From the NCBI RefSeq assembly GCF_900475935.1, contig NZ_LS483431.1:1178001-1242000 (forward strand): 64,000 nucleotides of DNA, given 5' to 3'. Source of the stretch: Campylobacter fetus subsp. fetus (lineage in GTDB: Bacteria; Campylobacterota; Campylobacteria; Campylobacterales; Campylobacteraceae). The position numbers were made by a program, and so were the translations under genes. The notes under the pieces were generated by a model that saw only the letters and a program-made list of their open reading frames with translations, did no database searches and had not been told where the DNA came from. Below, piece by piece: positions 43,452 through 47,234 of the stretch (position 1 is the stretch's first letter; every line of letters starts with the position of its first letter).

Positions 43452-43952
43452 TTGAGACAATGCAAAGCATTTACAAATCTTTTTGGCGTGTTTATCGTGT
43501 TGCTATTTGTCCTATTTGGCGTAGGCTTTTATACGTTTTATAACGCCAAAGGTACTTCATACTTTAGCAACGATAGTAAATCCTGTAATAACTGTCATAT
43601 AATGAATGACGTATATAACGACTATCTAAATGCGCCACACTCTAAAAAAGTCGCGGGCAAGCCAAGAGCAAGCTGTGTAGACTGCCATTTACCGCATAAT
43701 TTCATAGATAAATGGATCGCAAAAGGCAAAAGCGGTTTGAGCCATGCTTACTCATTTACATTTAAATTAGATGAGTTACCGACAAATTTAAGCGCAACCA
43801 ACAACAGTAAAATGATGGTGCAAAATAACTGTATCGAGTGCCACACAGAAATAGCATCTAACGTGATCAACTCAACAACAAATCCACACAATGACAGATC
43901 TCTAAGCTGCGTATCATGTCATACCGGTGTCGGACATAAAAGAGGATTTTAA
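43452..43952 (+). CDS. nrfH: Cytochrome c nitrite reductase small subunit NrfH
   Basis: 166 residues of the NapC/NirT family. One N-terminal membrane anchor (about 9-29) is followed by four CXXCH haem sites: CNNCH, CVDCH, CIECH and CVSCH. It takes electrons from menaquinol in the inner membrane and passes them to NrfA. TTG (43452) is the likely start, behind an extended AAAGGAGG site. A 248-base AT-rich region upstream should hold the promoter. Confidence 0.94.
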   Translation: MRQCKAFTNLFGVFIVLLFVLFGVGFYTFYNAKGTSYFSNDSKSCNNCHIMNDVYNDYLNAPHSKKVAGKPRASCVDCHLPHNFIDKWIAKGKSGLSHAYSFTFKLDELPTNLSATNNSKMMVQNNCIECHTEIASNVINSTTNPHNDRSLSCVSCHTGVGHKRGF

Positions 43953-43967
43953 AATAAAGGAGAAAAT

Positions 43968-45791
43968 ATGAATAAAAAAGGTGTTATCTATTTTGCAATT
44001 ATTGTTGTTATCATAGCGATAGCAGCAGTATTGATGCTAAATAAAGATATTAGTAAAAAACAAAATGAAGGTACAGGAGGCATAGCCTCTAAGGAATTTG
44101 TAGAGCTTAGCGATAATAACCCTACTTTCGATCATTGGGGTAAAAACTTCCCAGATTATCTTGATATGTACTTAACTGTAGAAACAGAAAAACCTGTTAG
44201 TACCGAGTTCGGAGGTAACTTAGCTTACTCTAAGCTTATACGCTATCCACAACTTACTATGTTATGGGCCGGATATCCGTTTTCTATAGACGCAAATGAA
44301 GAAAGAGGTCACTTCTGGGTTCAAGTCGACCAAATGGACACAGCAAGAAACAACAAAGACTTTTTAAATGCACACGGATTTGCAGCATTTGGCGGACAAC
44401 CTGCTGCATGTATGAACTGTCATAGCGGCTGGTCTCCTTGGCTATACAAAAATGCTGCAAAAGGCGACTGGATAGCATTTAACTCTACAAAATACTGGAC
44501 TATGATAAAAAACGTTCCAGCAGTAAATGGTATGGAAGAAAACTCTGTTGAACACAGCGGTCCTCACGGTGGTAAAAGAATGGGCTTAACATGTGCTGAT
44601 TGTCACAATCCAAAAGATATGAGCCTAAGACTTACTAGACAAGCAGCTATAAACTCTTTAATCATGAGAGGTTATGAAGCAGACAAAGAACAAGGCGTAA
44701 AAGCCACTAGAGAAGAGATGAGAACTCTAGTTTGTGCACAATGTCACGTCGAGTATTACTTTAAACCTACTGGTGAAAAAGTAAAAGTAATGGGTGAGAG
44801 CATAGCAAAAGACGCTACTAAAACATGGTGGAACGGAAAACAAAAAACTTATGACGAATTTGATTCTTGGAGAGACGGAAATAAACCTACACAGATCGAA
44901 GTTGATGGTATAGAGCTTATATACCCTTGGTCGTACTGGAAAAAAGGAACTCCATTTAGAATTGAAATGTTCGATGATCATTATGAAGCGGTACGCGGTG
45001 TATTTGATAAAGACTGGCCTCATAAAATAACAAAAGCTCCTATGCTAAAAATCCAACACCCAGAGTACGAGCTATATAGCGGCGGCGTACATGCCGCAAA
45101 CGGCGTAAGCTGCGCTGATTGTCATATGCCTTATATCAGAAAAGGTTCTAAGAAAATGACAAATCACAATGTTACATCTCCGCTTGCAAACATAAATGCG
45201 GCTTGTAAAACTTGCCATACTCAAAGTGAAGATTATCTAAAATCACAGATAAAAGATATCCAAAACTCTGTAGCGTTTGATCTTAGAACAGCTGAATACA
45301 GCATCGTAAGTCTTATAACAGATATCAAAAATCTAAGAGACGCTTTAAGTGCTATGCCGGCATTCCAAAAAGACGGTAAGGCTGATGAAGGTAAAATTTC
45401 TGCTGAACTAAAAGACGTCCTAGAACTTCATAGAAAATCTCAAATGAGAGCTGACTTTGTCGGCGCTGAGAACTCTACTGGATTCCATAACCCAAGAGAG
45501 GCTTCGAGAATGCTTCTTCAATCTGTGGATATGGCTAGACAAGGTCAAACTCAGCTTGTGCAAATCGCTGCTAAAAACGGTATAACCGGCTTCAAAACAT
45601 CTAATCTCGGTTTTGAAGATATGCAAAAACTAAATCCGGGCGAGATACGCTATAAAGTAGATCTAAACGGACATAAAGCAGGCGATAGATACTATGAGCA
45701 TGACTATATAAACGGAAATCCACCTTCTAATCTTATAGAAGATGATAAGAATTTAAAACCATACAACTATAACGTTGTAGATAAAAAATAA
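43968..45791 (+). CDS. nrfA: Ammonia-forming cytochrome c nitrite reductase NrfA
   Basis: 607 residues with an N-terminal hydrophobic export segment (about 5-23). Five haem sites are visible: CMNCH (148-152), CADCH, CAQCH, CADCH and CKTCH. The first, at the catalytic haem, is CXXCH where most NrfA proteins have CXXCK. Campylobacter is a known exception, and then the special NrfI lyase is not needed. It reduces nitrite to ammonium with six electrons in the periplasm and also helps against nitric oxide. It is co-transcribed with nrfH after 15 bases. About 100 residues longer than E. coli NrfA. Confidence 0.96.
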   Translation: MNKKGVIYFAIIVVIIAIAAVLMLNKDISKKQNEGTGGIASKEFVELSDNNPTFDHWGKNFPDYLDMYLTVETEKPVSTEFGGNLAYSKLIRYPQLTMLWAGYPFSIDANEERGHFWVQVDQMDTARNNKDFLNAHGFAAFGGQPAACMNCHSGWSPWLYKNAAKGDWIAFNSTKYWTMIKNVPAVNGMEENSVEHSGPHGGKRMGLTCADCHNPKDMSLRLTRQAAINSLIMRGYEADKEQGVKATREEMRTLVCAQCHVEYYFKPTGEKVKVMGESIAKDATKTWWNGKQKTYDEFDSWRDGNKPTQIEVDGIELIYPWSYWKKGTPFRIEMFDDHYEAVRGVFDKDWPHKITKAPMLKIQHPEYELYSGGVHAANGVSCADCHMPYIRKGSKKMTNHNVTSPLANINAACKTCHTQSEDYLKSQIKDIQNSVAFDLRTAEYSIVSLITDIKNLRDALSAMPAFQKDGKADEGKISAELKDVLELHRKSQMRADFVGAENSTGFHNPREASRMLLQSVDMARQGQTQLVQIAAKNGITGFKTSNLGFEDMQKLNPGEIRYKVDLNGHKAGDRYYEHDYINGNPPSNLIEDDKNLKPYNYNVVDKK

Positions 45792-45902: not shown

Positions 45903-46442
45903 TCAAAATAAAAGTCCGTCTTTTACTTCTATATATTTTTCATTGCCTTGTAAAACTTTAACTAACTCTAAAGCAAATTCCATAGCAGTAGCAGGTCCTT
46001 TAGAAGTAATGATATTCCCATCTATAACAACATTTTTATCTGATACATAGCCGCCTTTTGCAACTACTTTTTCAAAACCGGGATAGCAAGTATAACTATC
46101 TCCCAAAACATTGGAGGTACTAAGAGCCCATGGCGCGGCGCAAATGGCTCCTATAAATTTATCCTTCTCATCAAAATCTTTTAAAACTTTTTGAAGTTTT
46201 TCACTTTTAGCTAAATATTCGGCTCCAGGAAGTCCGCCCGGTAAAACTATCATATCAAAATTATCAAAATTGATATCGTCGAAAGCAACATCGGCTTTCA
46301 TACTAACATTATGAGCACCGATAGCCGTATCACTATTTAGCCCAACAAATACGGCGTCTATACCTGCTCTTCTTAGCACATCGATAATAGTTGTTGCCTC
46401 AATCTCTTCAAATCCATCTACTAACATAACAGCTACTTTCAT
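45903..46442 (-). CDS. DJ-1/PfpI-family protein
   Basis: 179 residues with the DJ-1/ThiJ fold: VAVMLVDGFEEIEATTIIDV at the N-terminus, the nucleophile elbow Cys in IGAICAAPWAL, and VVIDGNIITSKGPATAMEFA. The E-C-H-type pocket fits YajL/DJ-1 proteins, linked to oxidative or carbonyl stress and chaperone-like activity. The old label thiazole monophosphate biosynthesis is not supported. It is transcribed away from the adjacent selenoprotein genes. Confidence 0.92.
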   Translation of the reverse strand: MKVAVMLVDGFEEIEATTIIDVLRRAGIDAVFVGLNSDTAIGAHNVSMKADVAFDDINFDNFDMIVLPGGLPGAEYLAKSEKLQKVLKDFDEKDKFIGAICAAPWALSTSNVLGDSYTCYPGFEKVVAKGGYVSDKNVVIDGNIITSKGPATAMEFALELVKVLQGNEKYIEVKDGLLF

Positions 46443-46513
46443 TAATACTCCTTATATGAATTAAAAAATTATAGCCAATTGTAGCAAATATCACACAATA
46501 TTTTTATGCATTG

Positions 46514-46522
46514 TGCTATTAT
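46514..46522 (+). promoter_or_regulatory. Extended -10 promoter of the first selenoprotein gene
   Basis: TGCTATTAT is an extended -10 (TATTAT at 46517-46522), 27 bases before the ATG at 46550. CACAAT (46494-46499) and ATTGTG (46510-46515) form an inverted repeat across it. The same element is found before the second gene (46927-46935). Confidence 0.6.
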
Positions 46523-46549
46523 ATTTGATATCTTATGAAAGGATTTAGT

Positions 46550-46792
46550 ATGGAAGTAAAAATATTTTACTGCAACTCTTGAGTTAACTTTCTCACAAAA
46601 GCTTCTAGTGTAGAAGACGAATTAAACAAGAATTTCCCTAGTGCGAAAGTTTCTAAAGAGGTTGGCGAAAAAGGCGGTTTTAAAGTTGAAGCTGATGGAA
46701 AACTAATTTATGACTATAATAGTTTCCCTAGACCGAAATTTCCAGACAATGGAGAGATAACTGCTACAATCATAAGAGAATTTAATCTCTAA
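46550..46792 (+). CDS. selW: SelW-like (Rdx family) selenoprotein, copy 1, Sec-UGA at 46580-46582
   Basis: 80 residues when UGA is read as selenocysteine: MEVKIFYCNSU, then VNFLTKASSVEDELNKNF, and later GGFKVEADGKLIYD, FPRPKFPDNGEI. The CxxU at the end of the first beta strand, the G-F-x-V-x-x-D-G-K strand and the FPRP..FP segment match the thioredoxin-like Rdx family (SelW/SelT/SelH). AAAGGAT precedes the ATG. Reading continues 70 codons beyond the UGA and stays conserved with the paralogue at 46964, so UGA is recoded rather than a stop. The role is a thiol/selenol oxidoreductase; partner unknown. The gene is invisible to standard callers. Confidence 0.9.
46602..46616 (+). promoter_or_regulatory. 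Bacterial SECIS hairpin, selenoprotein copy 1
   Basis: CTTCTA and TAGAAG pair over six positions around a GTG loop, starting 19 bases after the UGA. Short stem, small G-containing apical loop and 16-37 base distance fit bacterial SECIS elements that recruit SelB. Confidence 0.75.
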
Positions 46793-46800
46793 TATAACAA

Positions 46801-46849
46801 AGCCTTTGAATTGTAATTCAAAGGCTATTTAAATTTAAATAGCCTTTTT
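46801..46849 (+). terminator. Two overlapping, mutually exclusive hairpins between selenoprotein genes
   Basis: Hairpin A: AGCCTTTGAATT pairs with AATTCAAAGGCT around GT (46801-46826). Hairpin B: AAGGCTATTTAAA pairs with TTTAAATAGCCTT (46821-46846), followed by U residues to 46849. They share AAGGCT at 46821-46826, so only one can form. B has the U tract of an intrinsic terminator; A would exclude it. A simple tandem terminator is the plain reading; an attenuator is the interesting one. Confidence 0.75.
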
Positions 46850-46926
46850 GATAATGATAATTTATTATTATATTAAATATATATCAAAAAATTATATTAA
46901 ATATTATAAAATATTTATGCATATTA

Positions 46927-46935
46927 TGCTATTAT
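46927..46935 (+). promoter_or_regulatory. Extended -10 promoter of the second selenoprotein gene
   Basis: TGCTATTAT, identical to the element before copy 1, lies 28 bases before the ATG at 46964. The bases upstream (ATATTTATGCAT) are also shared with copy 1, so the promoter was part of the duplicated unit. Confidence 0.6.
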
Positions 46936-46963
46936 AACAAAATATTTTCATAAAGGATAAGTG

Positions 46964-47203
46964 ATGCAAATAAAAATATTTTACTGTAACTCTTGAAATT
47001 TCCGTCCAAAAGCTTCTAGGTTAGAAGATGAGCTAATAAACAATTTTCCTGGTGTGGAAGTTTCTAAAGAGATAGGCAACAAAGGCGATTTTATAGTTGA
47101 AGTTGATGGAAAGGTGATTTATAATAATCATGATTTTCCAAGACCTAGATTTCCAGATGCTGGAGAAGTAACTGAAATTATAAAAAAAGAATTTAATATA
47201 TAA
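46964..47203 (+). CDS. selW: SelW-like (Rdx family) selenoprotein, copy 2, Sec-UGA at 46994-46996
   Basis: 79 residues with UGA as selenocysteine: MQIKIFYCNSU, then NFRPKASRLEDELINNF, GDFIVEVDGKVIYN and FPRPRFPDAGEVTEI. It matches copy 1 throughout and lacks one residue directly after Sec. The CNSU-NFRP form is the one I recall for Campylobacter SelW, so this copy is probably the ancestral type. AAAGGAT and GTG lie before the ATG. The gene is closed by a bidirectional terminator shared with efp. The selA, selB, selC and selD genes are not in this window. Confidence 0.92.
47013..47027 (+). promoter_or_regulatory. Bacterial SECIS hairpin, selenoprotein copy 2
   Basis: CTTCTA and TAGAAG pair around a GGT loop, starting 16 bases after the UGA. 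The stem is identical to that of copy 1, while only the loop changes (GTG to GGT). Confidence 0.75.
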
Positions 47204-47208
47204 AAACT

Positions 47209-47231
47209 AAAAGCCCTAATATAGGGCTTTT
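47209..47231. terminator. Bidirectional terminator between selenoprotein copy 2 and efp
   Basis: AAAAGCCC and GGGCTTTT, extended by TA/TA pairs, form a ten-pair stem with a three-base loop. It has U-rich ends on both strands and sits between two convergent stop codons. Confidence 0.9.
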
Positions 47232-47234
47232 AAT

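Follow-up and report, generated by a model that had tools for sequence, protein, structure and literature searches.

SelW is the closest described relative of the two genes analyzed in this study. In C. jejuni, the full-length read-through of SelW has been documented through Ribo-seq and mass spectrometry (PMC11955535). Passages of a 2015 study by Cravedi et al. describe SelW as known in Campylobacter and often absent from annotation, and they report a putative SelW of C. fetus without an optimal SECIS (PMC4607533). The latter gene is probably one of our two genes in another C. fetus genome, and it could be either of them; the main-text passages of the study mention neither a pair of genes nor a Cys paralog (PMC4607533). 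Switches between Cys and Sec are known in other families (PMC1794560). In a 2006 survey, 33 changes from Cys to Sec and 15 from Sec to Cys were tallied, none of them in SelW-like proteins; Sec was regarded as the original state of the latter (PMC1794560). The published rules for bacterial SECIS elements specify a stem of 4-16 bp, a loop of 3-9 nt with a G at position 1-2, a distance of 16-37 nt between the UGA and the loop (PMC13188914), and a folding energy of -7.5 kcal/mol or below (PMC13188914). In the open-licence literature, we found no paper on a tandem SelW pair or on gene conversion between Sec and Cys paralogs, and the searched literature yielded no report on the effect of the UGA-SECIS spacing in bacteria.

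This study investigated a window of 64,000 nucleotides from Campylobacter fetus subsp. fetus, in which a first-pass annotation had proposed two tandem SelW-like selenoprotein genes. In our assessment, the locus most probably comprises two separately transcribed Rdx/SelW selenoprotein genes, of which the second (copy 2) is an ordinary SelW and the first (copy 1) is a paralog of the C. fetus group that takes the Sec form in this genome. The kind of protein is already known; the new part is a Sec/Cys switch at a tandem paralog.

Results

Both genes were located on the + strand and were flanked by a DJ-1-type gene (dj-1) and efp, both on the - strand. Each gene consisted of an ATG, nine codons, a UGA, and an open frame that extended up to a TAA. 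The proposal of two genes of 80 and 79 residues, each with its own ribosome site and ATG, was confirmed with respect to coordinates, lengths, and AAAGGA sites, which were read from the sequence together with the UGA of copy 2.

46538..46543, + strand: ribosome site AAAGGA of copy 1
46550..46792, + strand: copy 1 gene, Rdx/SelW paralog in the Sec form, 80 aa (MEVKIFYCNSUVNFLTKASS...)
46580..46582, + strand: in-frame UGA (Sec) of copy 1, codon 11; the aligned codon in the relatives G014 and G003 is Cys (TGC)
46952..46957, + strand: ribosome site AAAGGA of copy 2
46964..47203, + strand: copy 2 gene, canonical Campylobacter SelW, 79 aa (MQIKIFYCNSUNFRPKAS...)
46994..46996, + strand: in-frame UGA (Sec) of copy 2, codon 11

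The annotation had further placed an in-frame UGA at the U of YCNSU and sequence conserved over about 70 codons behind it, and this description agreed with our results. Both UGAs were located at codon 11, and copy 1 contained no further stop or frameshift across 69 codons. The codon-usage log-odds past the UGA were +21 for copy 1 and +26 for copy 2 in frame, whereas the other frames and the reverse strand tested gave values between -5 and -16. When both strands of the 64 kb were scanned, an ATG followed by nine codons, a UGA, and at least 60 open codons occurred at exactly two places. With the standard code, no ORF of at least 50 aa was found on the + strand at the locus. The statement that the genes are missed by normal gene calling is only partly right: a family model for such proteins, NCBIfam NF041051, exists and copy 2 passes it.

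Putative signals for transcription were identified on both sides of each gene; the terminators were located through terminator prediction and the upstream elements in the sequence.

46514..46523, + strand: -10-like sequence TGCTATTATA upstream of copy 1, a putative promoter element
46801..46826, + strand: intrinsic terminator 3' of copy 1
46927..46936, + strand: -10-like sequence TGCTATTATA upstream of copy 2, a putative promoter element
47208..47232, + strand: intrinsic terminator 3' of copy 2, bidirectional and common with efp

The ten bases TGCTATTATA preceding copy 1 and copy 2 were identical, and those of copy 1 were unscored in the sigma-70 scan. Four intrinsic terminators were predicted in the region, compared with 0.2 expected. 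Because each gene has its own terminator and the same ten bases upstream, the pair resembles two separate transcription units rather than an operon.

The assignment of both proteins to the Rdx (SelW-type) family was borne out by the Pfam scores, which were 41.5 bits for copy 1 and 56.3 bits for copy 2 and thus above the curated cut-off of 22.6 for Rdx (PF10262). In the NCBIfam model NF041051 (SelTWH_Campy, cut-off 88), copy 2 scored 93.6 bits, whereas copy 1 scored 69.1 bits and is therefore not filed in that equivalog. The CxxU motif followed the first strand and read YCNSU in both copies. The AlphaFold model of copy 1 (mean pLDDT 88) had the order E-H-E-E-E-H and matched solved bacterial SelW-type structures with Foldseek E values down to 6e-5 and TM of about 0.8. 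The model resembled the Rdx thioredoxin-like fold of the bacterial SelW-related structures 2fa8, 3dex, 2oka, 2obk, and 2p0g, although the sequence identity across the structural matches was only 17-28%; the match to mouse SelW (2npb) was weaker (E 1.7e-3, TM about 0.7). The closest solved sequences of copy 2 were likewise SelW-like.

Copy 2 shares its family, UGA position, and SECIS with the SelW of Campylobacter (NF041051; C. jejuni selW / CJnc60). It is the ordinary Campylobacter SelW, which occurred once per genome in most of the Campylobacter genomes searched. In contrast, copy 1 remains under the family cut-off, carries one additional codon after Sec, and lacks NxRP, and no counterpart of copy 1 was found in C. 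jejuni.

An Rfam search of the window matched tRNA only; the SECIS was therefore modelled in this analysis. Both hairpins listed below matched the resulting covariance model.

46602..46616, + strand: SECIS hairpin of copy 1, CTTCTA-GTG-TAGAAG, 19 nt past the UGA
47013..47027, + strand: SECIS hairpin of copy 2, CTTCTA-GGT-TAGAAG, 16 nt past the UGA

The 42 nt from the UGA onward aligned without gaps in 20 relatives and contained a 5-bp hairpin. All five pairs were formed in each of the 20 relatives (100% of cells), and compensatory changes among these relatives were observed at four of the five pairs; none of 500 shuffles performed as well. The covariance model (R1) matched copy 2, which was inside its training set, with 59.0 bits (E 1.4e-11) and copy 1, which was outside it, with 33.8 bits (E 6.6e-6). 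Copy 1 was thus the second-best match in the window, and the next match had an E value of 0.78. Copy 1 aligned to the model with a 3-nt insertion directly after the UGA; its UGA-to-stem distance was 19 nt, compared with 16 nt in 20 of the 20 aligned relatives. The Cys copies of G014 and G003 did not match the SECIS covariance model.

Both hairpins have a 6-bp stem, with the loops GTG in copy 1 and GGT in copy 2, and the UGA-to-loop distances counted on the sequence were 25 and 22 nt, respectively. The two hairpins thus fall within the published stem, loop, loop-G, and distance rules. The folding energies in windows of 46-61 nt were -6.9 kcal/mol (copy 1) and -4.2 kcal/mol (copy 2), neither of which reached the limit of -7.5, and the short hairpins, at -4.2 kcal/mol, were also above it. 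This limit looks too strict here because the C. jejuni-type SelW gene, whose kind has documented read-through (PMC11955535), reaches only about -6 kcal/mol. By folding energy, the hairpin windows of copy 1 and copy 2 were no more stable than shuffles. The evidence for the SECIS is carried by covariation and not by energy.

The genome carries tRNA-Sec with the anticodon TCA (UCA). In the profile search, selB (287 bits) was above the cut-off, selA scored 513 bits and adjoined selB, and selD was above the cut-off with one in-frame TGA. The absence of selB or selC had been named as an observation that would speak against the proposal; the full set (tRNA-Sec, selA, selB, and selD) was present. The selD gene (L017, G000:C1:309802-310701) is itself a selenoprotein gene, and the Sec pathway thus partly depends on its own product. 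In three genomes of the same genus (G006, G007, and G013), selB was above the cut-off, yet no SelW-like gene of either kind was present. In the mechanism that we propose, the mRNA hairpin directly past each UGA would recruit SelB with Sec-tRNA-Sec, and the UGA would be read as selenocysteine, which would complete the redox motif C-N-S-U. Copy 1 and copy 2 would then act as small thioredoxin-fold thiol/selenol oxidoreductases.

To place the pair among relatives, we used sets of 153 family genomes and 397 Campylobacterota genomes, with one genome per species, in which the present genome is G000. A SelW-like gene was present in 103 of the 153 family genomes, nearly always as one copy with one TGA, and orthologues with the same UGA were found in about 100 genomes. 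Copy 2 was in the Sec form in all five genomes of the genus that carry it. A second copy was found only in the genus of the window and was always directly upstream of the Sec copy (153 family genomes). The paralog represented by copy 1 occurred in five genomes of the C. fetus group only: it was Sec in the present genome, Cys in G014 (YCNVCPKITAES) and G003 (YCSSCSQITAES), and a broken relic in G002 and G005. No other tandem double-Sec SelW pair was detected in the 153 family or 397 phylum genomes; such a pair is thus unusual. The only other double-Sec genome of the 397, G375, carried two Sec-type SelW-like genes approximately 16 kb apart (C96:103754-103969 and 119813-120046). SelW-like matches containing a TAA besides the TGA were observed in G123 (L049) and G077; these are possibly decaying copies or stretches beyond the gene end.

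G014 was the closest relative of G000 in the set (93% in selB). The gene tcuB was absent from G000 and present in G014 at 65.5 kb, and tcuRABC is described as common to all C. fetus testudinum strains and lacking in fetus and venerealis (PMC4943207). We infer that the present genome is a mammal-associated C. fetus, G014 is C. fetus testudinum-like, G003 is C. iguaniorum-like, and G002 and G005 are C. hyointestinalis-like.

Copy 1, the two Cys copies, and the two relics share one locus, with dj-1 on one side and the Sec copy on the other. The Cys copies have the same 80-aa length as copy 1 and the same 3' features (GEKG, ADGK, YDYN, and FxL), but they contain CxxC with TGC and no SECIS, whereas copy 1 in this genome contains CxxU with UGA and a SECIS. 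A clade of copy 1 and the two Cys copies was separate from all Sec copies (100/99); all three members contain the additional residue behind U/C, have lost NxRP, and carry GEKG, ADGK, and YDYN in the 3' part. On these trees and alignments, copy 1 is a separate, older paralog that is restricted to the C. fetus group; it is neither a plain duplicate of copy 2 nor a recent one with a subsequently altered active site. The extra Val and the changed NFRP segment that the first-pass annotation had noted in copy 1 are both present. They are marks of the paralog and not a new change, because the Cys copies also have the additional residue and lack NxRP. Since these active-site traits are common to the paralog, the divided redox role that had been proposed would be a property of the paralog family.

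Along the branch leading to copy 1, eight synonymous and seven nonsynonymous changes had accumulated in the 3' part, the latter being below the neutral expectation (p 0.016). The dN/dS between copy 1 and the Cys copy of G014 was about 0.27, which indicates looser selection than for copy 2 and its orthologue (0.04). The SECIS and the selection pattern of copy 1 favour a working selenoprotein, although some doubt persists because its spacer is longer and the paralog has decayed in both G002 and G005.

The identity between G000 and G014 changed abruptly around copy 1.

46500..46980, no strand assigned: divergent segment comprising copy 1 and the spacer, G000-G014 identity 63-75%

Just outside this segment, the identity was 92-94% on the left and 90-97% on the right. 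The copy 1 segment thus appears as a recombination-scale mismatch between two sister C. fetus lineages. Other parts of the region exhibited uneven identity as well. In the stretch of the DJ-1 gene that lies closest to copy 1 (46300-46399), the G000-G014 identity was 92%, compared with only 52-56% to G002; in the remainder of the gene, G014 and G002 were 80-93% identical, and the DJ-1 gene looks like a recombination mosaic. The identity in nrfH-nrfA (window 43452-45791) was 90-92% among G000, G014, and G002, whereas that in serA and rpsA was only about 80-83% between G000 and G002; nrfH-nrfA was unaligned at this place in G005 and G003. The nrfHA module is a probable exchange between the C. fetus and C. 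hyointestinalis lineages.

Discussion

Although the spacer of copy 1 has 3 additional nt, its UGA is likely read as Sec. Against this reading stand the 19-nt spacer, the score below the NF041051 cut-off, the decay of the paralog in G002 and G005, and the fact that TGC and TGA are a single change apart. Copy 1 could accordingly be a decaying Cys paralog in which a nonsense change from TGC to TGA stops translation, a reading that we consider quite unlikely. One base change would suffice for it, only relics of the paralog are left in G002 and G005, selection on copy 1 (dN/dS about 0.27) is looser than on copy 2 (0.04), and the spacer exceeds that of all relatives by 3 nt. However, copy 1 has a SECIS hairpin that is absent from the Cys copies, its 5' part is of the Sec type, no other stop or frameshift has arisen over 69 codons, and nonsynonymous changes on its branch are below neutral (p 0.016). 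That chance or a sequencing artefact produced the pattern, with no selenoprotein involved, is extremely improbable, since the genome is finished in a single contig with 99.94% completeness, orthologues in about 100 genomes have the same UGA, and the SECIS covaries; for copy 2, the conserved UGA and the covarying hairpin refute an artefact.

How Sec and Cys came to alternate at copy 1 is a separate matter, and the two histories considered here are both compatible with the reading of two selenoprotein genes. The chances are about even that copy 1 kept an ancestral Sec. In such a history, a duplication would have yielded two Sec genes, copy 1 would have gained one codon after the UGA, Cys would have originated a single time in the lineage of C. 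hyointestinalis and C. iguaniorum, and recombination would have carried the Cys allele into G014. The additional codon is common to the Sec copy 1 and the Cys copies, and in the full-length protein tree, the two Cys copies group to the exclusion of copy 1 (99/95). In copy 1 and the spacer, G014 is closer to G002 (79-89% over most of the length) than to its sister G000 (63-75%), with normal flanks, and the segment tree groups G014 with G002 and G005 (85/89). Recombination between testudinum and hyointestinalis/iguaniorum-like strains has also been described at flaAB/maf (PMC4943207), which we count in favour of an ancestral Sec. Nevertheless, the AU test failed to reject G000 and G014 as sisters in the segment (p 0.10), the neighbouring dj-1 strongly groups G000 with G014, and sites at which G000 stands alone dominate the segment, such that the odd one may be G000 and not G014. 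It is possible, with a probability nearer one in three in our judgement, that copy 1 was instead ancestrally Cys across the group and regained Sec via gene conversion from copy 2, in a tract from the ribosome site to approximately codon 20 that included the UGA and the SECIS. Among the sites that distinguish Sec from Cys copies, 14 of 14 up to nt 59 are Sec-type in copy 1, compared with 22 of 47 beyond (max-chi-square, permutation p 0.005), and trees of the 3' part place copy 1 together with the Cys copies (99/98 to 100/98). Immediately upstream of copy 1, the final 35 nt most resemble the upstreams of copy 2, and those of copy 2 resemble the upstreams of copy 1; furthermore, an ITAES block occurs in the relic of G002 as well as in the Cys copies of G003 and G014. 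However, a continuous tract would also have brought the shorter spacer of copy 2, and the extra codon would have had to arise again. When the Sec/Cys codon was masked, the AU test on the 5' part failed to reject the grouping of copy 1 with the Cys copies (p 0.33-0.49), and a common Sec/SECIS constraint could yield the same mosaic. Neither placement of copy 1 was rejected when the AU test was applied to the short halves. We lean slightly toward the ancestral Sec over gene conversion because the extra codon would then have been gained once. The specific proposal that a Cys protein became a selenoprotein in one step, when its neighbour overwrote the first 20 or so codons with the UGA and SECIS together, appears somewhat unlikely. 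As a main claim, an ancestral Cys with copy 1 as a clear product of gene conversion was dropped, since G014 is hyointestinalis-like in exactly the copy 1 segment and the AU tests rejected neither placement.

Under our preferred reading of two selenoprotein genes, the same SelW paralog occurs in a Sec, a Cys, and a dead state among very close relatives, whose genomes also contain an unchanged Sec copy. This provides a matched pair for testing the benefit of Sec, the function of the 3-nt longer UGA-to-SECIS spacer, and the route of the switch. Because the current family model misses copy 1, the selenoproteomes of C. fetus may be under-counted. Copy 1 offers a natural test of the gain or loss of Sec in genes. 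Gene conversion, if true, would be a concrete route from Cys to Sec; otherwise, a stop codon and an RNA hairpin must arise together.
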